Part shown: positions 1 to 47,750 of the stretch, piece by piece
How positions within the stretch are numbered: the stretch's first letter is position 1
Layout of the letters: every line of letters begins with the position of its first letter
DNA from: Symbiodinium natans
Taxonomy: Eukaryota > Sar > Dinophyceae > Suessiales > Symbiodiniaceae
DNA: 64,000 nucleotides
Assembly (NCBI GenBank): GCA_905221605.1
Contig: CAJNDS010002743.1
Coordinates: forward strand, 62,001 to 126,000
Direction of reading: 5' to 3'
The notes under the pieces: generated by a model
What the model saw: only the letters and a program-made list of their open reading frames with translations
Database searches by the model: none
What the model was told of the DNA's origin: nothing
Position numbers and translations under genes: made by a program

Positions 1-1955
1 CGCCTTGTCGCGTTCTCACGCCCAGCAAGGGGCCAACTGATGCTGATGATGCTCGCCTTGTCGGGTTCTCACGCCCAGCAAGGCTTAACTGATGCTCATG
101 ATGCTCGCCTTGTCGTCCCCCTGACGCCCAGCAAGGGGCCATCTGATACTGATGATGTTCACCTTGTCGCGTTCTCACGCCCAGCAAGGGGCCAACTGAT
201 GCTGATGATGCTCGCCTTGTCGGGTTCTCACCCCCAGCAAGGCTTAACTGATGCTCATGATGCTCGCCTTGTCGGCCCCCTAACGCCCAGCAAGGGGCCA
301 TCTGATACTGATATATACTGATGATGTTCGCCTTGTCGCGTTCTCACGCCCAGCAAGGGGCCAACTGATGCTGATGATGCTCGCCTTGTCGGGTTCTCAC
401 GCCCAGCAAGGCTTAACTGATGCTCATGATGCTCGCCTTGTCGTCCCCCTGACGCCCAGCAAGGGGCCATCTGATACTGATGATGTTCGCCTTGTCGCGT
501 TCTCACGCCCAGCAAGGGGCCAACTGATGCTGATGATGCTCGCCTTGTCGGGTTCTCACGCCCAGCAAGGCCTAACTGATGCTCATGATGCTCGCCTTGT
601 CGTCCCCCTGACGCCCAGCCCAGCAAAGGTCTCATGATGCTCGCCTTGTCGGCACCCTCACGCCCACCAAGGGACCAACTGATGCTGATGATGCTTACCT
701 TGTCGCGTTCTCACACCCAGCAAGGAGCCAACTGATGCTGATGATGCTCGCCTTGTCGGGTTCTCACGCCCAGCAGGGGCCAACTGTTGCTCATGAATGC
801 TCGCCTTGTCGGCCCCCTCACACCTAGCAAGGGGCCAACTGATGCTGATGATGCTCGCCTTGTCGGGTTCTCACGCCCGCCCAGCAAGGGGTCAACTGAT
901 GCTGATATGCTTAACTTGTCGCGTTCTCACGCCCAGCAAGGGGCCAACTGATGCTGATGATATTCGCTTTGTCGGGTTCTCACGCCCAGCAGGGGTAACT
1001 GATGCTCATGATGCTCCCCCTCACGCCCAGCAAGGGGCCAACTGATGCTGATGATGCTTACCTCGTCGTGTTCTCAGGCCCAGCAAGGGAGCAAGGGGCC
1101 AACTGATGCTGATGATGCTCGCCTTGTCGGGTTCTCACGCCCGCCCAGCAAGGGGTCAACTGATGCTGATATGCTTAACTTGTCGCGTTCTCACGCCCAG
1201 CAAGGGGTCAACTGATGCTGATGATGCTCGCCTTGTCGGGTTCTCGCGCCCAGCAAGGGCCAACTGATGCTCATGATGCTCGCCTTGTCGGCACCCTCAC
1301 GCCCAGCAAGGGACCAACTGATGCTGATGATGCTTACCTTGTCGCGTTCTCACACCCAGTAAGGAGCCAACTGATGCTTATGATGCTCGCCTTGTCGGGT
1401 TCTCACGCCCAGCAAGGGTCAACTGCTCACGCCCAGCAAGGGGTCAACTGATGCTGATGATACTTACCTTGTCGCGTTCTCATGCCCAGCAAGGGGTCAT
1501 TTGATGCTGATGATGCTCGCCTTGTCGGGTTCTCACCCCCAGCAAGGCTTAACTGATGCTCATGATGCTCGCCTTGTCGGCACCCTCACGCCCAGCAAGG
1601 GACCAACTGATGCTGATGATGCTTACATTGTCGCGTTCTCACACCCAGCAAGGAGCCAACTGATGCTGATGATGCTCGCCTTGTCGGGTTCTCACGCCGA
1701 ACAAGGGTCAACTGATGCTCATGATGCTTACCTTGTCGCGATCTCAGGCCCAGCAAGGGGAACTGATGCCTTTGTCGGGTTCTCATGCCCAGCAAGGGTC
1801 AACTGATGCTCGTGGTCAGCAAGGGGCCAGGTGATGCTAATGATGCTCTCCTTGTCGGGTTCTTACGCCCTGCAAGGGTCAACCCCAGCAACTGCCAACT
1901 GATGCTGATGATGCTCGCCTTGTCGGGTTCCTGACAGGGGCCAACTGATGCCCTT
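1..1955. repeat. 53-bp tandem array with three-repeat higher order
   Basis: About 36 head-to-tail copies of a unit of roughly 53 bp built on GATGATGCTCGCCTTGTCG followed by a variable half and CCCAGCAAGG. In the first 600 bp three variants alternate (CGCGTTCTCACG, CGGGTTCTCACG, CGTCCCCCTGACG), giving a higher-order period near 159 bp. That length is a multiple of three, so long frames stay open on both strands. Copies become irregular towards 1950. I read it as a minisatellite, not a gene. The array is cut by the start of the window. Confidence 0.93.
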
Positions 1956-2500
1956 TTTCGCATGGTGCTTCTGCAAAGAGGCAGACACGGAGCCATGCAA
2001 ACGCTTCAGGAAGCAGCACACATGTTGTTGGCGTGGCACGGGATTGTTAGGGTCTTTTTCCCATACTTTCCTGCTTGGCAAACGAGCTCGATTATAGGGA
2101 GCCCTTACGGGAGCCACATTGGGAGGCCGGAAGCGCCGGAAGAGCCTGAGCCATAAATATGCATGCCGCCCATCCGAACGTGGAGACAGAAAGGGAGCCA
2201 TGAAGGGAGCCACGAGGTACACGTGAGGATGATAGAGGAAGGAAGGAAGGGAGACCAAACACGGGCCCCACAGCCCATCCGAACCAACAGCTAGAAAGGG
2301 AGACATGAAGTGAGCCATCGCGCCCATCCCATTCTGAGGAGAGGAGGGAACGCACGTGTCGGTACTACATATCCCCAAAAAAGCAGTCTCCAGACTCTGC
2401 TCATCTGTGGTGGGCACCGGAACTCACACATTTGCACCGCTAGTCTCACATACATTGGTGCATCAGGTGCAGAAGCAATAACAGTCGAGCACCCGGCGGT
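1956..2500. other. No gene seen; short GGGAGCCA-type repeats
   Basis: Between the minisatellite and the first coding-looking exons there are scattered purine-rich repeats of GGGAGCCA/GGGAGACA (about 2097-2310). No frame shows a recognisable protein. Confidence 0.4.
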
Positions 2501-2507
2501 GCATTGG

Positions 2508-3310
2508 TCAATGAAGCTCGCTGCCTACGAGCAATCTTGCAGATGCGCAGGCGTCCATCGACAATGTGAAGTCCTTACATGTCCTTCCCCGCGCCTTCTG
2601 CAGCATCTGCCCTCGAACACCACGCCACCGTGTCTGCAGATGGACCTGAGCTGGGGAGTGGCCAGAACTGTCAAAGACAAAGGGACACGCCACAGAGAGT
2701 CTAAGCATGTCCAAGCGTTGGGCGGCCGCTTCATTGCATTTTTTGAGGTCATCAAAGTTGAGAGTCAACCTGTAGCAGGGGCGGATGCACAGGATTTGGG
2801 CATGGATTGGAGCTGGTTCCCTGCAAGTCTCTGGCGTGAAGTAAGTGCTGACTGGCGGATTGTACCTCTTGTAGTTCAAGCATTCTCAGACATTCTCAGA
2901 CATTCTCAGACGCCAAGTCTCCGCTTTGTAGGTCCGTTGGGGCCCGCACGCCACAGCTTCGCCTGGCCTCATGCCGGGCTTGTGCGCATTCATGCCAATC
3001 CTGCTCAGAACATGCGCACAAGAAAGATGGCTGTACACGGACAGTGGCTTGCGTGCGTGGCCCTGAACTTTTGACATCTTCGGATAGATGAATTCAGGCA
3101 GCGGCTGGAGCGTTCTGGGATCACTCCTGTCAATGAGCGACTGCACCTGTTCAGCGTTCTTGCAACACAGGGCTGAAACAGCTTAACATCATCTAAGCAC
3201 GCTCCTGAACCCCCAACAAGGAAACCAGCAATGCCTGCCAGATTGGCCACACGGTTGTCGCTACCTCGCAGAACGTAAGTTAATGCAGGGCGACTTGCTG
3301 CAAGCAAAAG
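2508..3310 (-). CDS. Hypothetical multi-exon gene fragment
   Basis: At least three minus-strand blocks look coding but I recognise no family. About 3310-3140 has the stretch RGSDNRVANLAGIAGFLVGG. About 3140-2890 has VQSLIDRSDPRTLQPLPEFIYPK-like sequence. About 2790-2520 has LTLNFDDLKKCNEAAAQRLD and then GQMLQKARGRTCKDF. The blocks change frame and are separated by short gaps, as expected of small introns. AGACATTCTC is repeated at 2884-2910 in a gap. Start, end and function are not determined; it could be parts of two genes. Confidence 0.4.
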
Positions 3311-4090
3311 TTGTCAGTGAGACTCTTAATCACTTTTTGAGGAAAACATGAAACCGCATAGCTCTGCAGAACGTTGGGTACTGCATAGACCCAGCGGTCT
3401 GGGATGTTGGCTTAGTCACCTACAAAGAGAGTGGAGGCATAGCCGGCCCTGCATCGTGAGCACGAGCGACGCTCACACTGCGAACATGTCGAAGTGAATC
3501 GGCAATCTATAACACCGTGGAAGCTTCTGGAGGCCGTTGAGCCCTTCTCTGCACCCCTCGACAATTCATCCTACCGCCATGACTATCGAAGTTGAATCTG
3601 AACCGAGAAGCTCATGTATCACGAAAGACTATGCCCAAAAAAACGCCTAAGCCTAAACCAAGTCTGAAAGAATGCCGTGAGCTTCCTTGTTTCCGAGCTA
3701 GCGGCTGACGTGCGGCAATAAAACAACTGCACTCGTCGATATGACTTTAGCGCCTGTAGGCAAGCAACAGCAAAAGTAGTTAAATCAATAATAATTACAG
3801 TAGTTAGCCAGGCTCTGAAGGATTCCTCCAGTTTAAGAGCAAGCCCTCCGGATTCATTTGCTTGCTGGTTCCCGGTGCCGAGCATGTGGCTGCCGTGCTC
3901 GAGCCCCCACTCTCAGGCTCAGCCTGAGCACAAGCCCACAGAAGTCAGTGCAGCGCCTGCGGGTGGGAGGGGACATGATCTGATCCAAGCAGGAAGATGT
4001 CTCAGCGGCCCGCTAGCACAAGCCAAGTTGGATCAAGCAGCAGCTGGCGCTTCACCCTTAGATTTTACACAGTGCCGCAGCTCGCATCAG
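3311..4090. other. No convincing gene
   Basis: Intergenic or intronic sequence. A minus frame at 3619-3885 is open for 88 codons but has no recognisable features and I do not call it. Confidence 0.3.
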
Positions 4091-4093
4091 CTA

Positions 4094-6530
4094 TCAGCAA
4101 GCAACTCCCGTGAGCTCAGGCCGGCGCTTGTTCAAGGACGTCAAGCTACAGCTGATGCCTGGCACCAAGCCAAAACCCCGACGAAAGATTGTATCGACAT
4201 CCCAGAAGCAAAACTGAACTCTTGCGACCTCGTTTGCCCTGTTGCCCGTCGTTTTAAACCCCTTGATCCAAGCGCGGAGGCACACTGCCCCAGACCTGTG
4301 TCTGTTTGTTGCGTGTGTGAGCACGTCACCCTCTGGGGACTTCTACGAACAACTAACTGCCATCGATATCTTCAAGATAGGTGGCATGAGGCGAAGCACA
4401 GTTCCGAACTGCAACACAAGTTGATTCAATCCTGCGTTTGTTATCTAGGATCCAGCACCACTGTGTGACCTCGCGGAACCGCTGCAGCCTTGGCAGCACC
4501 TTTGGAGGGCTCGGTGCAAGCTTGCACCAGCTCTCTGCTGCCTTGTAGACGTTAGAAACTACGGTTGGATGATCTTCAACCAAGCTCGCTAATTTGCCCA
4601 GCTTACTTTGACTGGACATCTTTATGAAGTGCACTTTGTGACAAGTCATGAACTTTGGATTCTGCATGCATCGATGGACTGGATCTCCACCCGCGCCCAA
4701 ACGTGCAGGTGGCGAACAGCCAGCTAATTAGTTTTAAAATTGTTTCTTGTGTCAAGACCAACGTTCTTGCAGGAGCTCTAAGCATGCAGCGCAGGGAGGC
4801 TGGAGCACCTCTTCCAGTATGCGTTTGCTGAGTGCCCGCACCTCTGCAGGTGCAGTACTGGACTTTGCTCTGGCTAGCTGTTTCACCACAACACGCGACA
4901 AGTGCGCAAACTCTGGTGCGAAAACTAGGGCCACTAGGGCGCATGTCGATGTGCTTGTTCTCCTGGCTGTACCTTGCTATCAAAGTCGGATTCTGGCAAA
5001 AGAACCTATGCACGGTCGCTAGTCGACAGTCGCACTGTCTGACAACATTCCAGGCTTGATGTTCCAAGCATTTGAGGGCTCTGGGAGAACGACTCGCTGT
5101 GATCTTGCAAGGAGCAGCAGCCGAAATTCAGAAGTCGGTACTTCGATTCATTGAAACCGTCTCTGGGTCAGGGGCTGAAGGTCTCGCGCATGACGGTTTG
5201 CATTCGACATTTCGTTCCTTACCAGTTATCAGGCTATGAGATGCGCAGGAACGCCCCTGCCCAGGCAGACACATTCTAACCTCTGAGCCGAGGAGCCTAA
5301 AAGCTGTATCTGCACGTCTAGCCTTCTCGGTTCTCCGGTCTGCCGTGTCTTGCATGTCCATGTACTGCTTGTGATCCGACTCCTTGGCCAGGCGATCTCA
5401 AGCATTGCAGAACCACGCCCGACTCTTGCCCGACGCAAGCCAGAAGCAGGCCGCCAAGCTTCCACGTTCCGTTTCCGCTGGTCCTTCGCGCGAACCTGCA
5501 GACATCAAAAGCGGCGCTCGAAGAATCCCATCCGCTCCATACACGGGCCGATGCTGTCATGATCCAATGCTGGCCGCGCTGCCTTTACGTGGTCCTCCTT
5601 GTGCTGCTCCAGAAGAAGGCGGTCCTGGCGCCGGAGGACTTCTCTGTTGAGGCCGGCGACGTGGTCCTCAGCTGCCCGGTGCTTACATTGGCTTATCAGG
5701 GCCCAGGGCAAGGGTTCCTGATGGCATGACCTGACAGGGATTTGAAGCCACGAGTCCGCATTCTTCTTGGCTTCGAGGGCATCTTGGCTGCTCAACTGGA
5801 ACTGCTGCTTGGTTGCAATCCTTGGCCAGGGATGCCCTGCCGGATGTCGCATGAACGCAGTGCGACATGTTCCAGTTGAACCCGCAACTGCACAGTGCCG
5901 AGTCCGACTCTCTTGCAGCTCCTTTCGCAATCGACGTTCTGCATCCTCGCGACGCTAGTAGTAGCAAGGGGGACGTGCCTTGCAAGCTCCGCCAGTACTC
6001 AAAGGCGAACGCTGGGCCCTGGTCCTTCTTCTCCTTCTTCTTCGACTCCAACCTGGCCGCGACCTCTATGAGAACATCCTCTCTGTGCCGATCTTTCCTC
6101 AAAGATCATCTTCCACGACATGGTGACGGCTAGTGACTAGCGACTTCGTAGATAGTCATCCGTGAAGAGAGTGTAAAGTTATGTAAAGGTGATCGAGGCA
6201 GCCAGCAGTCGCACATATTCAACGTCTGAGTCCAAGTGGCTTGGCTTCCTCGGCCACCCGCTGCTTTCCTTGGACGCGGAGAACTCGGGAAGATACCGAT
6301 GGTGCAGGGACTCAAGGGAATTTGTGAATTTGTCATCTGTCTGCTGGCAAAGCTCGCGCATGGTCCTTGCTCTCCAGCAAGTGCTCTTTTGCTTGCTCTC
6401 GAACGCGCGCTAGCAACTGCACCTTCTCAGTCAGGAGCTCATGTTTCTCCACCTGACCATGGAATACCCAGTGACAGGCACACACAAAGGCACACAGATG
6501 AACAGCAGCAGCATACATAGCAACTATATG
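4094..6530 (-). CDS. Hypothetical multi-exon gene rich in helix/coiled-coil exons
   Basis: A run of minus-strand blocks with charged, helix-prone composition. In transcript order: about 6450-6340 (VEKHELLTEKVQLLARVREQ), about 6110-5980 (RHREDVLIEVAARLESKKKE), about 5800-5510 (LNREVLRRQDRLLLEQHKED), about 5365-5270 (MDMQDTADRRTEKARRADTA), about 4920-4760 (VRALSKRILEEVLQ), about 4625-4440 (KLGKLASLVEDHPTVVSNVY, then REVTQWCWILD). Frames shift between blocks and gaps of 50-300 bp separate them, consistent with short introns. It lies just downstream of the TPM-RING gene on the same strand. I do not recognise the family; a cytoskeletal or flagellar protein is possible but only a guess. It may be more than one gene. 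Confidence 0.45.
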
Positions 6531-10364: not shown

Positions 10365-13300
10365 ACACATATATATATATATATATATTACATACCTATA
10401 TTTATGTTTACTTATTTATGTACACAAATAAACGCACATGGAGATACTAACTTGTTTATTTATGTACACACAGGCGTCACGCTCTCGCTTGCTCTTCTAA
10501 ATTCTTCCGCACAGCCGAAACAAAGTTGGCCTCGGCGCGATCAAAGACTTTCGCGCTCTCGCGTGGGGCACGCTCCAGAGCGCGGATCTGACGAATGATC
10601 TCCCTCTTGCCTTGCCAGTGTGCAGCAACGACCACCACTGCTCTGTCAGACAGGACACACCGCGTTCTGGGGGTGTAGGGTTTAGGGTTTAGGGTTTAGG
10701 GTTTAGGGTTTAGGGCTTAGGGGTTTAGGGGTTTAGGGGTTTAGGGCGTCGAAGCCGGGAAGTGCATCAACGTGACGCTCCATCTCACTCTCCTCCTCCT
10801 TCTTCTTCTTCGCCAGGTCGATTTCTTTCTCCCTGCGTCGTTGCCTTCGTTTCAGGATGCTTAGAGGCGAAGCTCAGCCGCTCAGCCACTCGTGCGCCTT
10901 ATGAGAAGCTGCCGCTGAGCCACTCGGCGTGCTCCTGCTTCGTCACAAAAACCTCCTGCTCAGCAACGCGTGCCTGGTCAAACCATCGCTGCTTGTAGGT
11001 TCAGGTGGTATCATACAGCACACATGCTGAGCGGCCACTGCCCTGCAAGCCGGCATACGGAGCGTTGCCTTCTCTCGGTCTTCTGTAGTCTGCTCGACGA
11101 GTTTCTGCTTCTGCTCGAGCTCAGCCTCGTGCCTAGGCAAGCTTGAATCTGTGCCGTTCCGTTCAGCATTCCGAACTTCTTCGATGAGCTCAAACCGGGG
11201 CTTGAAGAGCCTAACACCTCTTGCAGCAGGTCTCCTCACAACTGCCTGCTTCAGAATGCCCAAGTCTCGGCACTACTGACTGAGTCTGACGCATTCTGAA
11301 ACAGGGCGAACCTAAACCTACCTATACCTACCTAATCTTCGTACTTGATACATATTCATGCAACATTGTGTGTGAGGGCGTATCCTTGGCCCGGGTTTGT
11401 GCAGAGCCCTAACAAGGCGAACTGAGAACTACCTGCATAAGCCGGGTTCAGGTTCCACGACGGCAAGATTGTGACCTGTGTGATCGCACAGGCCTAACCA
11501 AGCATCGGCCAGATTCGATCTATGCTGAGTCAAGTCGCTGTCGCTCTTTTGCTTCCTGGGCAGCCAGCGCATCAGGCACATGGCATGGCAGAACCAGTGC
11601 ATAACACATGCCTCGCAGCCAGAACCGCATGCCACCAAGGGGCGAGCTGTACTTGCATGTCCTTTTTCCTCAGGTACACGGAGCACACTTGCCCAAGGAC
11701 ATTGGTGCACGCAAAGGCCAGCTCACATGGTGCAGCGTGTATTCATCGCGGAAGTGAACTCTGCAGTATTCTGTCAAGTAGCTGAAACTCAGCTTGGATG
11801 GTCTTCATCCTTGTTGTTGCTTCTTGTGCTTCTGCAGCAACATCTCTTGCCAGCTGCGTCTGGATGATGCGCTCCTTTGTCCGGGCCTCTTCCTCGAGGA
11901 AGTCCTTCCTCCGCATGCACAGATGGCACGTCCGCGCATGAACTAGAATGACATGTATAAGAATGTTGAACTGAGCCTAGGGTCTTTCTCATCCGGTCTT
12001 GCCACGAATAAAAATCAGAGGCATCATGAAGTTCAGCCTCATACTGTTTGAGCAAGTCGTGCTCTGCCTGCAGCGTCTGTCTCAATCGCGCATCTTCTCG
12101 AAGCACTTGTGCCACATTCTGTCGCACTGTAGCATCATCCGTCGGCATGATCCGCTTGTTAGGCTTCGGCTGGAAGGTACATTCAGCCATGACCTTCTTA
12201 TCTGCATCCTCTTGAAGCTGTGTTCGGATCGTCTCATAGTCTCTTCGACTGGCTGTCTCTAGGGTGAACTCGTCATCCATCGAGTACTTCGCAGCAACCT
12301 TTGTCTTCTCTTCCTCCAGCTGCCTCTTTCTCTCCTCCTGTATTGCCGCCAGGCTCGTCCGGTTGATGTGCGCAGGCACGGGATGGGCGGTCCAGTCCTT
12401 GTGCACTGCACTCTCTGGTTCCGGGATCAACCTGCACGGGTCAGAACAGCACGACGTGTGTTTCTTAACGATTCCTTTCTGACAGCACGCGCCTGGGCTT
12501 CACGGCTGTGAGATTGAACGGCTCAAACTCGGTGGGTTTCTTGTCAGACTTCACCGTGCCAGGCCCTCGTTGACCGCCCGACTTTGCAACACCTGTCGCT
12601 TTGAGCTGCATGTCGGACATCAGCGGTCTCAGTTCATCTGCACGGCGATGAAGCTTGCCGAGCACGTCCTGTGCATTCAGAGAATCCTATCCTGGCCATC
12701 GATGTTCGTCAAAATTCGAAAACGCAAAGGAAGGCTGAGCGACAGCCAACGATGCAAAGGCCCCACGTGGCAGAACCAGTCGTCACGCCCAGCCAGAGCA
12801 CATCGAGCAAAAAGAAAGTCTTAGTTCATCATAGTCTATCATAATCCGTGATAATCTAGCAAGGTGCTGGTGAAACTTGCTCCTCGTCCAAATAATCCGG
12901 GTCATAGTGCTTGAGCCACTCCTGCATGACCCAGTCGTTCAGCTCCTCCCGATCCAAAGCGTACTGCCTGTCAGAAGAACAGGGTTTAGGGTTTAGGGCG
13001 TTTTTCCCGGTTTAGGGGGTCAGATTTGGGGTTTAGGGTTTAGGGTTTAGGGTTTAGGGCTTAAGGGTTTAGGGTTGAGGGTTTATTCGCACTTGGCTGT
13101 GGGCCCTGGGCCAAAGTGACCCGGAGTCCATACATCCGAGACACATGAGGGCGAAGATGGCTGGAGGGCTTCCATATCCGCAAAAGATAAACTTCCGAAA
13201 GTCTTGCAAGCCCAGCTCATCCAGCCTCCCAACGGGTGACGGGTGCTCATGAAACACACACTCTACAATATTCTACAATGTTGAGGGACTGGCTACTGCC

Positions 13301-19700: not shown

Positions 19701-19745
19701 TTTTTGCCACCCGCTTAGCTGACCTCTCGGACACTCTGCAGCATG

Positions 19746-19824
19746 GTTTAGGGTTTAGGGCTTAGGGTTTAGGGTTTAGGGTTTAGGGTTTAGGGTTTAG
19801 GGTTTAGGGTTTAGGGTTTAGGGG
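19746..19824 (+). repeat. Interstitial TTTAGGG telomere-like repeats
   Basis: Eleven or so tandem TTTAGGG units, one of them CTTAGGG, ending in TTTAGGGGG. It lies upstream, in the minus-strand sense, of the exon blocks at 19555-18360, so it may again be intronic. It is the third such tract in the window. Confidence 0.92.
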
Positions 19825-41159: not shown

Positions 41160-42155
41160 GCTCTTGAAAAAGCCAAGTGAACAGTGTAACGGCTCGAAAG
41201 GTTGTAGCGCATGAACTAAAATAATGTTTACCGGGGGCATAATATAGTACGTTTAAAGAGGCCCCCGGGCAATATTAATACTAGAATACTAATGGTGCAG
41301 TTCTCACGCACTCTTTTTATTGGATTACAAATGAACGCAGTGAGTGCGTGAATACAATAATAAAGAGTGAGAACGAAACCATACCATTCACTTCTTTCCA
41401 TCAATCATTAGGAACCTCACCTCTAATTCTAGTACTAATGAGTCTATCCACGGGTGAACGTACTAAAAGGCCCTTAAATTTACTAAATTACAAGTTTACG
41501 CGTGAATTTAGTATATTTAATTTGGGCTTTTACATTGGCGAATTATACCAAAGGCCCGTCATAATAAACTATGGTTTTTATACGGGCTTTTAGTATACTA
41601 TATTCGCCCATACGTTCACACATCACTCATACGAATAGTTATTAAGTTCATACGCCCGTGTCTGCGAGAAGTTGACCGAATCCCTTAATAATATTGTAGG
41701 CGGTCACATGCTACCTTCACGAATCTCTTAACATTAACACGGTCTGGAAGATGTACGCATTAAGTTGAACACTGTGAACTAACGAAGAGAGTAATATTAA
41801 CCCGGCTTTATAAGGACTAAAAGGACGCATGAAAGCCGGGGTGATTATTATGAACGACGTACGAAAAGAACTCAACATTATAATTATAAATGAACATGCG
41901 AACGTATTAATTATAATATTGGGGGAACGAAGTAGGCAGTGAGGTGGGGACTTTAGGGTAGTTTCGTTCAGGCTTTTAGTAGCGAATTAGCTTACAATGA
42001 ATGAATATAATGAACGAACGTGTGAAACTAATGAACAAAATCAGGTGCCAGGAAAAAGAAAAATTCTGGAAAATATTACACATTTTAATGGTTTGTGCGT
42101 GTTGAAGCTACCAAAATTCATGGCTCAAGCACCGTCGGTTGACCCCCCGGTAACC
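41160..42155. other. Mitochondrial-like AT-rich DNA with inverted repeats
   Basis: Composition drops in GC compared with both sides and the sequence is packed with hairpin-forming pairs. Examples: CCGGGGGC (41231) with GCCCCCGG (about 41261); GTTCTCAC (41301) with GTGAGAAC (41368); CCCGGCTTT (about 41800) with AAAGCCGGG (about 41832); AAAAGGCCC (41466) with GGGCTTTT (about 41525). Dense hairpins around gene pieces are a known trait of dinoflagellate mitochondrial genomes. No complete gene is visible. Immediately downstream lies a cox1 piece, which supports the origin. Confidence 0.65.
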
Positions 42156-42375
42156 AATCAATGATCTTTGCCATGTCATCTATTTCTCTTCTTGGAAGTC
42201 TTGTCTGGGGGCATCTTTTGTACCCTGTAGGTTTAGAAAGTGATACAAAAGCTTATTTAACAGGAATTACAATCTTAATATCCTTACCAACTGGTACGAA
42301 AATCGTTACTTGGCTTTTTACATATTTTGGAAATCCACCAGTATTACACCTTAGAATTAGTTGGAAGAAACCTGT
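42156..42375 (+). pseudogene. cox1: cox1 fragment (mitochondrial origin), internal part
   Basis: Plus-strand translation gives [19 protein letters not shown], then GLESDTKAYLTGITILISLP and TGTKIVTWLFTYFGNPPVL. This is the cytochrome c oxidase subunit I region normally reading [23 protein letters not shown] and LISLPTGTKIFNWL. The WGHH pair, which includes the copper-ligand histidines, is changed to WGHL and the following M to L. The similarity ends at about 42372, where GC-rich sequence begins. It is about 70 codons of a protein of roughly 500 and has no start, so it is a fragment, best explained as nuclear mitochondrial DNA or one of the gene pieces typical of dinoflagellate mtDNA. Confidence 0.88.
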
Positions 42376-42519
42376 CGCGTGCGCGTGTTGATGCTGCAGG
42401 CTGCGCCCCAACGCCTGCGCGGCGCATTGCGGACTGCGCTGCCTTTAAGGAGCGGTAAATCTTAATATAACGCAGAGTGAGACATGAACTCCAAAGAATA
42501 GAAATCTCTTCATATTTTT

Positions 42520-42650
42520 CCCCTTTTAGTATATTATAATCGCGGGTTAATAATTATAATGAGCCCGCGGATATAAGTGAATGAGTGACGAATCCAAGGT
42601 TTTGTTCGTGAACCCGCCGTTCAATCGCATGCTTCCTTGACAAGTAAAAA
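42520..42650. other. AT-rich mitochondrial-like piece with hairpin
   Basis: TTAGTATATTATAATCGCGG resembles sequence near 41590, and CGCGGGTT at 42541 can pair with AGCCCGCGG at about 42562. It lies between GC-rich retroelement-like bases at 42376-42450 and the poly-A. Confidence 0.5.
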
Positions 42651-42653
42651 GTG

Positions 42654-42686
<33 letters not shown>
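42654..42686 (+). repeat. Poly-A tract (33 A)
   Basis: Uninterrupted run of 33 A, immediately upstream of GC-rich reverse-transcriptase sequence. Compatible with a retrotransposition tail or an insertion junction. Confidence 0.9.
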
Positions 42687-42688
<2 letters not shown>

Positions 42689-42724
42689 GATCCATTATTC
42701 GTTCTTTCTTTTACTTTATTATTA

Positions 42725-44467
42725 ACTGGCCTGCGCCTCGCCACGGCCGGGGGCTCGCTGCTGGAGCGCGTGCGGGCCTGGCGAGCGGCGCCACCAATGA
42801 GCATCTCCGCATCATGCTTGATGATGAGGAGGACAGCCGCCGTCTTCACAATGCAGCCGAGCTACTTGCTCCTGCGCAGGTGCCGGACGACGTCCTTGCT
42901 GCCGTGCGGCCTGCCTGCCCTTCCAGTTCGGCCTTAGCACGTCTGCTGGGACTGAGGCCGTCGTCTGCCTCCTCCGCGCAGCAACTGAGGCCAGTCCGCG
43001 GGCAACAATCCTTTCGGTTGATGCTGTTGGGGCATTCGACCACGTCTCCCGTCGAGCCATGCTGCGGGGGCTGCTTGAGCGCCCGGCGCTGCGGCCTTTG
43101 TTGCCTTACGCGCGCAAATTCTACGCCGAGAACAGTTCCTACACTTGGTATGACGATGCCGGGCACGGCCATCGCATCCAGCAAGGCGAAGGCGGCGAGC
43201 ACCAGCGCTTTACGCCCTCGCGCAGCACCCTGCGCTCGCCGAGCTCCAAGGCCAGCTTCTCCCGGGTGAGGCCGTTTTCGCCTTCCTAGACGACATCTAC
43301 GTCGTCGCTGAACCTGAGCGTGTTCGGCCTTTGCTGGATGCACTGTCCGCTGCCCTGTGGGAACATGCGCGGGTCAGATTGCATGCGGGCAAGACCCGCA
43401 TATGGAATGCGGCCGGTGAAGTGGCCGCCGCTGGCTCCTCGGACCCAGCGTGGGTCGGCGACTGGTCGCTCCCACCCGACCAGCAAGGCCTCACCGTGCT
43501 GGGCGCGCCGTTGGGTCATGACGCGTACGTCCATGCGCAGCTACGCCTCAAACGTGCACAGCATGACCGACTCCTCCACCTTCTCCGGGTCCTCCCCCCT
43601 CACCAGACAGAAGCGTATGCGCGGGACCACGACGCGGCAGTCGCCCAGTGCCTGACCCGCCTCTTGCAGCTGGAGGCCGCGCCCCTGCCTGATCCCAGCC
43701 TGCGCACGGCGCAGCTGGCCTTGCGGTTTGGGGGGCTTGTTCTGCGCTCCGCCGTTGCTGCCCGCCAAGCTGCCCATTGGGCCTCCTGGTGTGACACACT
43801 GCCCGTTATCCAAGCCCGAGCGCCGGTAGCTGCAGACCGGCTGCTCCAGGCCTTGCAGGGCCATGTGCCCTTGCCCGCAGCAGCCGCTGCGAATCAGGCA
43901 CGCGATGCCCTTCGCGCCACCGGCTACGATGCGCCGGCGTGGGCTTCCCTGCTTGACGTTGCAGAAGACAGGCGCATCGAAGTCGTGGCCAACGGCTTGT
44001 CCATTTGGCACGGCTCGCAACTCGTCTCCCCGCTCACACGTACCGCCGAGCCCCACCCGCGAGCTGATGTCGAGCCGCGGCGCTCTGTCACCGCAGCAGC
44101 GCGGCGCAAGCGACACGGCACGTACCCCGAGCTCCTCCGTGCCCGGCGGTGTTGCCTGGTCGTCATTGGCCTGGAAGTGGGTGGGCGCTTTGGCACCGAA
44201 GCAGCCACCTTCCTGCGCCTCCTGGCCCGCCACCGAGCCGCCACCATCCCAGCGCACCTCCGACCAGCGGCTCAGGCCGCCTGGGTTGCGCGATGGGCAG
44301 CGCTCCTGGCCGTTGCGGCCCAGCGCGCGTTCGCATCTTCCTTGCTCGAGCTGCCCCTTGCGAGCGAGAGCAACGGCGATGATGCCGTGCCTGAGCTGCA
44401 CGAGGTCCTGGCTGATGGCCGCTGGGATCGCCCCCCGCCCGCCAGCCGAGTGCCGCCGCGACGGTGA
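42725..44467 (+). mobile_element. LINE-like reverse transcriptase remnant A, frameshifted
   Basis: GC-rich block. About 42985-43195 encodes ATILSVDAVGAFDHVSRRAM, the motif A region (D-x-x-GAFD), then YAENSSYTWYDDAGHGHRIQ and QGEGGE. Expected residues after GGEQGD are missing at about 43200, where the frame shifts. The other frame, open to 44467, gives LPGEAVFAFLDDIYVVAEPE (motif C, the catalytic DD), then HAGKTRIWNAAGE and a long thumb/C-terminal region ending near SLLELPLASESNGDD. Such proteins are abundant in Symbiodiniaceae genomes. The frame break and missing N-terminal endonuclease make it inactive. A-rich tracts lie on both sides, inside mitochondrial-like DNA. Confidence 0.85.
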
Positions 44468-44518
44468 GGCCCCTCCCTCCCCCCGCCCCCGCGAAGACAC
44501 GCTGCGGAAAAACACGCG

Positions 44519-44545
44519 AGGAAAAATAAAATAAAATAAAAATTA
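44519..44545 (+). repeat. AAAAT tandem tract
   Basis: Five or so AAAAT units directly after retroelement A and just before cox1-like sequence. It looks like a simple 3' tail. Confidence 0.8.
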
Positions 44546-44552
44546 GTGCTGT

Positions 44553-44935
44553 CTTCTTCTCACATCTTCTTTTATTCATGTTTACCATAGGTGGTTACAC
44601 AGGAATAGTTTTTGGAAATGCTGCAATAGATCTAGGATTACATGATACATATTATGTTGTAGCACATTTTCATTTTGTTCTTTTTGTTTCTTCGCACCGG
44701 GAGGTATAATTTCTATCTTCTCTGGAACAAGTTTTAGTGGAGAAAAGATTTTTGGCACTAGTATTATTTATTTTTACGTTCATCCTCTGGTACACTTTCT
44801 CTTTTTCATCTACATTTAATATTTATTGGTATTTTTCTTACCTTTTCCCCAATGCATTGCTTAGGATTTAATGTTATGCCAAGAAGAACCCCATCGTTTC
44901 CAGATTCTTTTTATTCCTGGAATTCCTTGCGGGCC
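44553..44935 (+). pseudogene. cox1: cox1 C-terminal fragment, frameshifted
   Basis: Plus strand encodes [39 protein letters not shown], and after a frame change SIFSGTSFSGEKIFGTSIIY and FYVHPLVHFLFFIYI; after another change PMHCLGFNVMPRRTPSFPDS and FYSWNS. These are consecutive pieces of the C-terminal third of COX1, including the [11 protein letters not shown] motif with its heme-ligand histidines. At least two frame breaks exclude a working gene. In intact COX1 this piece follows the 42156-42375 piece after only about 15-25 residues, so the two look like one fragment split by retroelement A. Confidence 0.9.
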
Positions 44936-45060
44936 CATGGTTACGTGCTCTAGTTCTCCTTTCAAGGCTCTTTTAACGGCATCTTCTTCACCTGGAAAGA
45001 TACTAAAATCATGACCTGTGAAGTGAATACACGCATATGAAATTATAAGTTAACGCATGA

Positions 45061-45832
45061 TTATAATGCACCGACGCTCCCAGCCACTCGCCCGCAGCGG
45101 CGCACCGCGCGCAAACCCCACAACCGTGTCAAGGTCCGCAGGAAGTCTTGGGCCTGTTCTTTCCAGCTGCCGCCAACCTCTTTGCCCAGGACTAGCAGGC
45201 GCTGGGCCCGGGCCCACACAGCTCGGATTCGCGGATTGCTTGCGGCGTTCGGCATGGCGCAGCGAGGCCCCATCAAACGTGGCTGCGGTTCGCCCTCGCC
45301 TGCCCGCGGCAACACCATGCTCGTGGCCCCGTAGACCACCAGGTCCAGGCGGCGCGCCCCCCGCGCGGACTCCCCGTGTTGTGGTCCGCGCCAATAGCTG
45401 CGCAGCTGGGCGACCTGGCCTTCCGTGCCTACGGCCTCGCGAGCATCGCGAACCCATGCGCGCTCCACGACTTTCGCCAGGCGTGCCAAGCGGCCCATGC
45501 CCAAACGGGTCGATTCGGCGGCCACAGCCGTGCGCTCCTGCACCCGCAGTGGTTTGGTGCGAGGGGCAGGGGCACGCGGAGTAAGCGATTTGCATGGCCG
45601 GCGGTGGGAGTGCTAAGCCTAGCGGCTGCGCAGCCCCGGTAGAAAAGGTTGCAAGTCTGCGACGGCCGTTGCCAGCGGGCGGCAGCCAGTGCGGACCAAA
45701 AAGGGCAGTCGACCCATCCCTGGCAGGACGCGGTGCCTGCTGGGGGTCCAGGGCCGCAACGCAGGACTGCGTGGCCTGGATGACGAGATGCCACCTGGCG
45801 ACCGTGTGCGAGCCTTCTTTGATGATGTGCAC
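45061..45832 (-). mobile_element. Reverse-transcriptase remnant B, C-terminal domain, inverted
   Basis: On the minus strand 45543-45061 reads VVERAWVRDAREAVGTEGQV, GARRLDLVVYGATSM and LLVLGKEVGGSWKEQAQDFL. These are hallmarks of the C-terminal part of dinoflagellate LINE-like polymerase ORFs (R-R-L-D-L-V-V-Y-G-A-T, and V-L-G-x-E-V-G-G-R/S-W). The orientation is opposite to remnant A. The catalytic region is absent. The sequence begins directly at the end of mitochondrial-like DNA (ACGCATGATTATAATG). Confidence 0.8.
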
Positions 45833-46550
45833 GTGACTTCACCACCACCTCGCGTCTCACATCGGTAGGCTGCAGCACCACTTGTTCGACCAAGCGCGCA
45901 TCCGCCTCAACCCGTCCAAGACTCGTGTTTGGAACGCGGCCGGCTCTTTCCCCAAGGGCCTTCTCGCGCCCCAAGGTGCACAGATCTGGGCTGGTGATGC
46001 GCGTCTTCCTGCATCGGAACGTGGCCTCCGCGTGCTCGGAACCCCACTCGGCACGCCCGAGTACATAGCCGCGGAGCATGTCGAGCCGCACTGCGCAGCC
46101 CGAGTCCCCCATGCCGAAGGCTGAGGTGGGCCCGCCCGCAGACCAGTTCGTTGTCAAGGAACTCCCCGGCGGACTCAAGACGAAGGAGTGGCAAGGCATG
46201 TGAGGACAGACCGGTCATGCGCAGAAGCGAAATCGTTGTCCAGCTGGGGGACAAGACCCTGAGCACGTATTGCGCTCGAGGCACATCACAGTACAACAGC
46301 AGCAGCCATGCAACCTGAAGGTCGGGGACAGCAGGGAGCCTCGCAAACAAGCGGACGTGCTGTGTGGACAAGGTGCCAAGCTGCAGCGGCCTACTTCGCA
46401 TCCTGGGCTGACTGCATGCCGGCCATTTCCGCTCGTGACCCCCAGCTCGCCACCACAGCCACACGACAGCTGCAGGGGCTTGCTGAGGCGGCGCCGCGTC
46501 ACTGTCAGCTCTGAGGGAGGCGGCGCGCGCACTCATTGATGCAGGAGTGA
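45800..46550 (+). mobile_element. Reverse-transcriptase remnant C with an internal inversion
   Basis: The plus strand carries GDRVRAFFDDVHVTSPPP (motif C), then after a frame break ARIRLNPSKTRVWNAAGSFP and RGLRVLGTPLGTPEYIAAEH to about 46085. The next part of the protein appears on the minus strand, 46310-46080: AQYVLRVLSPSW, DNELVCGRAHLSLRHGGLGL and RSAARHA. Colinearity returns on the plus strand at 46378-46550: ASWADCMPAISARDPQLATT and ARALIDAGVMQASRPRRG. One inversion of about 250-290 bp inside an element accounts for this. Compare remnant A for the expected order. Inactive. Confidence 0.78.
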
Positions 46551-47400
46551 TGCAGGCTTCCAGGCCCCGCCGTGGGATGGGCTTGCCCACGCCCCTTCCC
46601 AAAGGGAAAGCACTGGGAAAGCGCATCAGCGACGGCGGCAAGTGCCTCCCGCGCAGCCCTCCATCGCATTGGGTTCGCCGAACAGTAGCTTGGGAATGCT
46701 CGGCAGTGGCGCCCGACAACCCTGCATGGGCCGGTCCGCACTTAGTGCAACGCAACACCTCGTCGACCTGCTGCACCGGCTACGTGGTGTGCCGGGTCAA
46801 CCTCTCGCGACTCCGCGCGATTTCCTGGCAGGGTGCTGGCGGACGCCCAGCAGGGTCGCACAGGGCCGCAAACGTACCGTCGCCGCCTGGCGCCATCACC
46901 CCCCGAGCGCGCGACAACTGCCCTTGGCCCGCGGGCACAGGCGTGCTCCCGGCGGGCCTCGTCGGTATCAGCACGCCTGCCTCGCCACATGAAGAAGCTG
47001 GGAGCGCGCCTTTCAACCGCTCGACATTCCCATCTTCGAAAAGCTCAATGCCCTGCAGGAGTTCAGTGCGGCCTTCAGCACCTTGGGAGCCGATGCGGCG
47101 AAAGAGGAGACGGGGGGAGGAACTGAACCGACTGTTTTTTTTTTTAACTGCAGACGTCGGTCGAAGGGTCGGGGCCACCTACGAACCTACCGGAAGCGCT
47201 CGGAAGCAGAAAGGGTCAGGGCCACCTGCGAACCTACGGTCGGGGGCCCGCCAGGGGCCCGCCCAGGGGCTAGGCGGCTGGATTGCGGGTGCCTGCCAGC
47301 TCGCGTCGGCCAACACTTCGTGGGTCTGGCGTCGTTCCGTCTGCGCAGCACTCCCAAGCTGGCAGCGGCCACTGCCAAAGAAGCCGGCCAAGCGCGTCAC
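46550..47400. other. GC-rich retroelement-like debris
   Basis: Composition and codon bias resemble the flanking polymerase remnants. The long plus frame across 46547-47839 is probably not a gene; it shows only patches such as VTAKKPAKRFTSTACAAVTH. No motif lets me assign a domain. A T9 tract lies at 47135-47144. Confidence 0.4.
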
Positions 47401-47750
47401 CGCCAAGAAGCCGGCCAAGCGCTTCACAAGCACAGCATGTGCAGCGGTGACTCACGCCGTCGGCTCCCCGGCAGGTAACGGGGCTGACATGGCTGACGAT
47501 GGTAACGTCAACGGCGAGCTGCGCTCCATTCCACACGGACAGGCCGCAACCTCGCGTTTGCGATGGGCACATCGACGTTCATATCCGCCAGTCGCACCTT
47601 GTGGCATACCCGCCCTCCCGCTTCCCGGCAGACACGGGCAACCGCGCGCTCAAGCGGCAACGCGCGAGGGGCCAGGACACCGGATTTGGGAGCAAGCCAT
47701 CGGTACTTCGTTTCGGCTCCAAATCTCGGGTCTTCAAAAACAATCAACTC
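47400..47750 (-). mobile_element. Reverse-transcriptase remnant D, C-terminal region
   Basis: Minus strand: LPLERAVARVCREAGGRVCH, KVRLADMNVDVPIANAR and, after frame changes, LSVWNGAQLAVDVTIVSHVS. These match the segment R-V-C-R-E-A-G-x-R-V-x-x-N-V-x-L-x-D-M-N and L-P-x-W-x-G-A-Q-L-A-V-D that precedes the RRLDLVVYGAT part in related elements. At least one frame break. Same orientation as remnant B. Confidence 0.75.

Follow-up and report, generated by a model that had tools for sequence, protein, structure and literature searches.

How two pieces of the mitochondrial gene cox1 came to lie on either side of a reverse-transcriptase remnant in the dinoflagellate Symbiodinium natans, and in which order they arrived, is the question raised by the locus described here. 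The window, meaning the whole stretch of 64,000 nucleotides that was analysed, corresponds to C2431:62001-126000 in a genome assembly of 759 Mb and 2543 contigs. An initial annotation had proposed organelle DNA that entered the nucleus and was later hit by a retroelement, and this order is supported by a target-site duplication, by the empty site in intact cox1 and by 40 uninterrupted copies among the 40 other places scored.

The two cox1 pieces and the duplicated target site

Both plus-strand cox1 pieces of the initial annotation are real, with 93.9% (left, 213 aligned bases) and 88.7% (right, 389 aligned bases) identity to an intact cox1 found elsewhere in the genome, but their borders had been misplaced, at 42156-42375 and 44553-44935 instead of 42149-42361 and 44541-44929, positions 42362-42375 already belonging to the LINE (Table 1). 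The translations of 42149-42361 (38.2 bits) and 44542-44700 (39.9 bits) match Pfam COX1 above its cut-off of 34.8 bits, and 42149-42361 and 44541-44700 together form one uninterrupted COX1 stretch. The 15-25 residues once thought to be missing between the pieces are not missing: joined over a single copy of AATTAGT, the pieces keep the reading frame, and the 115-residue product aligns end to end and without gaps with residues 256-370 of PDB chain 9fq7_4Q (E 5.7e-31; the left piece by itself reaches 8.5e-17). In the remaining four alignments printed, the join is about three residues longer than the other COX1. Judged from these alignments, the two pieces belong to a single cox1 pseudogene, very probably a nuclear mitochondrial one (NUMT), and zero residues are absent between them.

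In the intact reference gene (L004, on contig C1530), the matches of the left and right pieces overlap at 2478-2484, where AATTAGT is present once. Read against this empty site, the AATTAGT repeat is a 7-bp target-site duplication, found at 42355-42361 and 44541-44547 and not around 42376 and 44545, where it had been expected. A 200-bp probe over the insertion site found 40 of the 40 scored places uninterrupted (of 111 candidates, the window not among them). Since words of at least seven bases common to the surroundings of two random places are not rare (412 of 2852 random pairs), what makes the duplication telling is that the two copies stand exactly at the borders of the insert and that the empty site has AATTAGT only once. 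Three other 5'-truncated LINE copies were checked for a duplication, and none was clear.

Relative to intact cox1, the NUMT differs at 40 of 579 sites (6.9%; 17, 12 and 11 at the three codon positions) and carries 16 inserted bases in five places; given these frameshifting insertions and the substitutions across all codon positions, the copy is non-functional and decayed. A multiple alignment with 22 fetched cox1 loci from 19 distinct places, which as best matches are biased to little-decayed copies, gave 45 differences from intact cox1, 4 of them shared with at least one fetched locus and 41 private. The reference gene itself has one in-frame TGA at a conserved tryptophan place, perhaps an RNA-editing site. 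A search of viral contigs returned three cox1-like places at 41-45% identity and no relatives of the reverse transcriptase.

Table 1. Features of the locus and of related LINE copies (window positions unless a contig is named)
Feature	Position	Strand	Basis
Segment A, mitochondrial non-coding	41217..41381		98% over 165 bp to small AT-rich contigs C1530, C1111 and others
Segment B, mtDNA-like	41419..41633		96% to C1948 and C364 (places on nuclear contigs); C1530 in part, 87% over 67 bp, 0/100 shuffles as good
Segment C, mtDNA-like	41782..41860		96-99% to several other places; 83% over 66 bp to C1640, 0/100 shuffles as good
AT-rich stretch up to cox1, weakly mtDNA-like	41861..42148		Score 38 against a maximum of 33 in 100 shuffles; mostly without genome match
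cox1 pseudogene, left piece, including left duplication copy	42149..42361	+	93.9% to L004 2272-2484; Pfam COX1
Target-site duplication, left copy AATTAGT	42355..42361	+	Exact repeat; single in empty site
LINE, 5'-truncated start	42362..42442	+	93-98% to five fetched LINE copies, all extending upstream
AT-rich block nested in LINE, probably mtDNA; includes A33 run	42443..42723		Comparison with other copies; C1640 match
LINE body with reverse-transcriptase remnant	42724..44518	+	Comparison with other copies
Reverse-transcriptase reading frame, first part	42912..43199	+	Open reading frame
Reverse-transcriptase reading frame, second part, FAFLDDIYVV	43199..44464	+	RVT_1 13.7 bits, below cut-off
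LINE A-rich 3' tail, AAAAT repeats	44519..44540	+	Sequence; A-rich 3' ends in other copies
cox1 pseudogene, right piece; 16 inserted bases in five places	44541..44929	+	88.7% to L004 2478-2850
Target-site duplication, right copy AATTAGT	44541..44547	+	Exact repeat; single in empty site
AT-rich NUMT end, weakly mtDNA-like	44930..45085		Score 36 against a maximum of 29 in 100 shuffles; no match elsewhere in genome
DinoSL-started LINE 5' ends	L065 C1369:394050-394160; L066 C638:30098-30208		Exact DinoSL

The LINE insert and its family

The insert, 42362-44540, is a LINE copy that is 5'-truncated, internally deleted and provided with an A-rich tail. The reverse-transcriptase remnant noted between the cox1 pieces is genuine: the window frame stays under the Pfam RVT_1 cut-off of 29.6 bits (13.7 bits), and an open relative, L049 on contig C638, has a frame of 1395 residues (1571-5758, minus strand) that reaches 45.1 bits. 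In the Pfam search of L049 the reverse transcriptase was the sole domain above its cut-off, and its nearest relatives in the PDB are the R2 proteins 9nl3 (E 1.5e-10) and 9dou (2e-10). Upstream, at L049:5722-6300 (minus strand), lies a 192-residue frame with a weak RING-finger match (18.8 bits, cut-off 27.3). Concerning the borders of the retroelement, the AAAAT run on the right is the LINE 3' tail, but the poly-A at 42654-42686 is not a LINE edge, because it is located within an AT-rich block with LINE on both sides.

Used as a query, window positions 42728-44540 matched at least 93 stretches, the query itself being one of them (40 of 202 candidates scored), and eight regions with LINE copies were fetched, of which L053 matches the same as L047. 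Family sequence extends upstream of the base matching 42362 in five of these eight (L047-L050 and L053), and the window copy is therefore 5'-truncated; L048, L051 and L052 start at other points of the element. The 3' ends are A-rich in all seven copies inspected, and the downstream DNA differs between copies, save L047 and L053. Of the signs of LINE insertion, 5' truncation and a common 3' end are thus seen in this multicopy family. Moreover, four of the seven fetched relatives (L048, L050, L051 and L052) are 98-99% identical to L049, and copies so alike, together with the open 1395-residue frame, argue for LINE activity that is apparently recent.

The window copy lacks blocks of 437, 123, 74 and 460 nt, and a net 37 nt, that are present in other copies, the sizes varying with the copy compared (437 becomes 435 against L047; 460 becomes 1340 against L047 and 324 against L054). 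A spliced retrocopy was considered for these gaps and set aside, as none of the four larger ones combines a GT, GC or GA start with an AG end at the placements seen. The joined gap ends were not seen in other scored copies (40 of 202 candidates scored), except for match rows on C115 and C2131, which span the third gap with extra bases. To the right of the NUMT, on both strands, relics at 45124-45543 (minus), 45707-46478 (plus) and 47233-47532 (minus) show 28-36% protein similarity to the reverse-transcriptase frame of the insert and probably derive from an older related LINE.

The AT-rich block nested in the LINE

The A33 run at 42654-42686 lies inside a 281-bp AT-rich block, and AT-rich sequence goes on after the poly-A too. 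The LINE bases that flank this block sit one base apart in L048, and among genome matches the block is present in the window LINE copy only: all 10 candidates of one search were scored, the nine others matching the LINE part alone, and a second search returned only the block itself. A 43-nt stretch with a hairpin is 84% identical to the AT-rich contig C1640, scoring 43 where the best of 100 shuffles reached 32, and four nuclear control stretches scored no better than their own shuffles against the AT-rich contigs. The GC content of the block is 0.32, compared with 0.38 in the left AT-rich flank, 0.36 in the right one and 0.34-0.37 in four stretches of AT-rich contigs. Against a mitochondrial source, the folding of the block is unremarkable (z -1.0), without perfect stems of nine or more. 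An Rfam search of the AT-rich blocks for rRNA fragments gave one weak match below cut-off, over the poly-A. Taken together, the block is likely to be captured mtDNA.

Mitochondrial-like surroundings and other cox1 copies

The small AT-rich contigs used as references were treated as mtDNA on the basis of their size, AT content and intact cox1, whose copies are mutually identical. Several segments left of the cox1 piece resemble these contigs (Table 1), and the intervening 41634-41781 does not match them clearly above chance (2 of 100 shuffles as good). Passages of PMC2151934 describe the non-coding DNA of dinoflagellate mitochondria as hairpin-rich and AT-rich, and the mitochondrial genome of Symbiodinium minutum is reported as 64.3% AT in PMC4558855. 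Positions 41185-42147 contain four perfect stems of nine or more (shuffle mean 0.28, maximum 2), and the right end contains none; single-strand folding is better than that of shuffles in 41200-41480 (z -3.6) and 41470-41690 (z -5.7), and not better in 41700-41960 (z 0.2) and 44930-45085 (z 1.8). Segment A is less diverged than cox1 (3 of 165 against 40 of 579 sites, p 0.013), so that the left part of the locus may have been acquired independently of cox1.

The window lies in one contig with nuclear-like GC, and the composition is different on both sides of the NUMT, whose place would be in a nuclear chromosome. The same window contains internal telomere-like TTTAGGG repeats (10671-10746, 13025-13085 and 19745-19823) and, at 1-1769, a tandem array with a 53-bp unit. 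A COX1 family search of the genome gave at least 97 matches (96 of 194 candidates scored), and a cox1 DNA search at least 43 matches on 38 contigs, at 87-100% identity (40 of 323 candidates scored). The cox1 DNA searches combined name at least 52 contigs, at least 33 of which are 100 kb or longer, and a few of the short cox1-bearing contigs are probably mtDNA itself. On contig C2005, two cox1 NUMTs lie 3.1 kb apart. A limited literature search found no description of dinoflagellate NUMTs, and the word "numt" is absent from the genomics review PMC11453091. With many cox1 NUMTs of graded identity, the influx of mtDNA into the dinoflagellate nucleus could be dated; additionally, cox1 markers taken from genomes with such NUMTs run a risk of pseudogene error.

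Order of events

The NUMT is 6.9% diverged from mtDNA, and the substitutions found in the window LINE copy alone number 22 at 1698 sites (1.3%, a lower bound), which is consistent with decay first and the LINE later; by block, the window LINE differs from other copies by 2.4-7.4% (4 to 7 copies per block, L053 excluded). A cox1 fragment, with mitochondrial non-coding DNA on its left, would have entered a nuclear chromosome and decayed there as a pseudogene. Later, a LINE RNA would have been copied into the NUMT by target-primed reverse transcription at a cut staggered by 7 bases, the cDNA starting at the A-rich 3' tail and stopping early, which would leave the 5' truncation, and fill-in doubling AATTAGT. 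Five coding blocks would have been lost during cDNA synthesis or afterwards. No duplication accompanies the 281-bp AT-rich, mtDNA-like piece in the LINE, in keeping with its entry by end-joining repair. This whole account, from NUMT through decay and LINE insertion to the AT-rich piece, is very probably correct, and a single locus would then record mtDNA, decay, LINE and AT-rich piece in sequence. That a LINE interrupts a NUMT is nothing out of the ordinary; this instance is unusually well documented.

Other readings of the locus were weighed against this one. The assembly does contain small AT-rich contigs with intact cox1, from which a chimera, or true mtDNA joined to nuclear sequence, could have arisen; nevertheless, the intact copies are mutually identical, whereas the window cox1 is 6.9% divergent with 16 inserted bases and 41 of 45 differences private, and the duplication and LINE borders are clean, which makes such an artefact very unlikely. 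The nesting alone would also be compatible with a LINE that jumped into mtDNA inside the mitochondrion, the split gene moving to the nucleus later. This is less probable still, as the insert is absent at all 40 scored other cox1 places (of 111 candidates), intact ones included, and the cox1 divergence is about five times the private changes of the LINE, so that decay had begun by the time of insertion. A further reading concerns the nested block only and replaces later DNA capture with a change of template during reverse transcription, from the LINE RNA to a polyadenylated transcript of the mitochondrion. Dinoflagellate mitochondrial transcripts are oligoadenylated according to PMC2151934, and the block holds a run of 33 A; on the other hand, AT-rich sequence also follows the poly-A, and because the block is flanked left and right by LINE bases that other copies have one base apart, two switches would be needed. 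The template switch is thus rather doubtful, and later capture of mtDNA by the LINE copy is preferred.

Spliced leader at the 5' end of two LINE copies

The 21-base core of the dinoflagellate spliced leader (DinoSL) has 205 exact occurrences in the genome, compared with none for the reversed control, as befits a dinoflagellate. It stands exactly at the 5' start of both LINE copies that could be traced to their 5' end among the eight fetched, L049 and L050. The homology between these two reaches the point where the fetched DNA ends on the 5' side, and in each an exact DinoSL precedes that point by about 0.58 kb, on the same strand; the link from leader to LINE is made by coordinates, across an unread stretch between the fetched pieces. 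Ahead of DinoSL the two copies show no relationship (5 of 24 bases identical), and behind it they are related (76% over query 22-111, E 1.8e-6). By coordinates, DinoSL and the A-rich tail delimit an element of about 6.1 kb. The copy on C1369 carries a full leader followed by three shortened ones, and the one on C638 a single leader. Similar leader stacks were found at no fewer than 42 matches (40 of 65 candidates scored), places that may be LINEs or of other origin. A stack at C2037:117749-117785 (minus) precedes LINE pieces of the same orientation at C2037:114931-116124, and is perhaps a third leader-capped copy with deletions. In the window itself the best DinoSL match covers 15 of 21 bases. 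A 9-base leader-like word, TGGCTCAAG, at 42121-42129, 20 bases left of the cox1 piece and one of two in the window, is possibly due to chance.

Multiple leaders are treated in passages of PMC6050394 as a mark of repeated retroposition, and the arrangement found here suggests a LINE that moves as a trans-spliced mRNA, a candidate for the machinery of dinoflagellate retroposition. In its full form the proposal is that a recently active LINE family moves as a spliced-leader-capped, polyadenylated mRNA, gaining one DinoSL per cycle, and that its reverse transcriptase could have produced the numerous dinoflagellate retrogenes that bear leaders, in a nucleus still taking up mtDNA, even inside LINE copies; the chances for and against it are about even. 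Some LINEs of trypanosomes and nematodes insert site-specifically next to spliced-leader genes, and the R2 group, whose proteins are nearest in the PDB to the reverse transcriptase of this family, has site-specific members, the target of R2 being 28S rDNA. The leader could accordingly be a flanking target and not part of the element. However, the two copies have nothing in common ahead of the leader (5 of 24), one copy has shortened leaders after a full one, as repeated trans-splicing leaves, and 5'-truncated copies vary in where within the element they start, with differing flanks where inspected, so that site-specific insertion beside spliced-leader genes is quite unlikely.

For the movement of the family as a leader-capped mRNA, no description of a leader-capped LINE was found in a limited literature search. 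In PMC6050394, the retroelement mediating dinoflagellate retroposition is given as unknown and Ty1/copia is favoured; PMC10235124 points instead to LINEs, which it links to the integration of viral sequences near DinoSL and calls non-active remnants. A LINE family started by DinoSL bears on the question of which retroelement mediates this retroposition. The locus gains interest from this family, with its leader and its apparently recent activity, and from the abundance of cox1 NUMTs of graded identity.

Comparison with known systems

The closest parallel to these NUMTs is the myzozoan Toxoplasma gondii, with very many of its own: PMC10948144 gives 8118 masked sites, which make up about 1% of its nuclear genome. 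As in that account, decayed mtDNA, cox1 included, occurs at many nuclear places, often as rearranged pieces; unlike in T. gondii, the window NUMT belongs to a dinoflagellate, is split by a LINE and holds a nested mtDNA-like block. Non-LTR elements are abundant in dinoflagellate genomes, as passages of PMC8045281, PMC5890265 and PMC10235124 on Symbiodiniaceae LINEs describe, and the insert family resembles them in this respect. PMC8045281 and PMC10235124 describe old remnants and PMC5890265 describes LINEs with a methyltransferase ORF1, whereas the insert family has copies 98-99% identical, an open 1395-residue frame and two DinoSL-started copies. The R2 retrotransposons (9nl3, 9dou) are the nearest solved relatives of the reverse-transcriptase region but, unlike R2, the window insertion lies in a cox1 pseudogene and has an A-rich tail. 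Finally, the DinoSL-bearing retrogenes described in sections of PMC6050394 share with the L049/L050 family the stacked leader relics at the 5' end, with the difference that the leader here sits on the reverse-transcriptase-bearing element itself.
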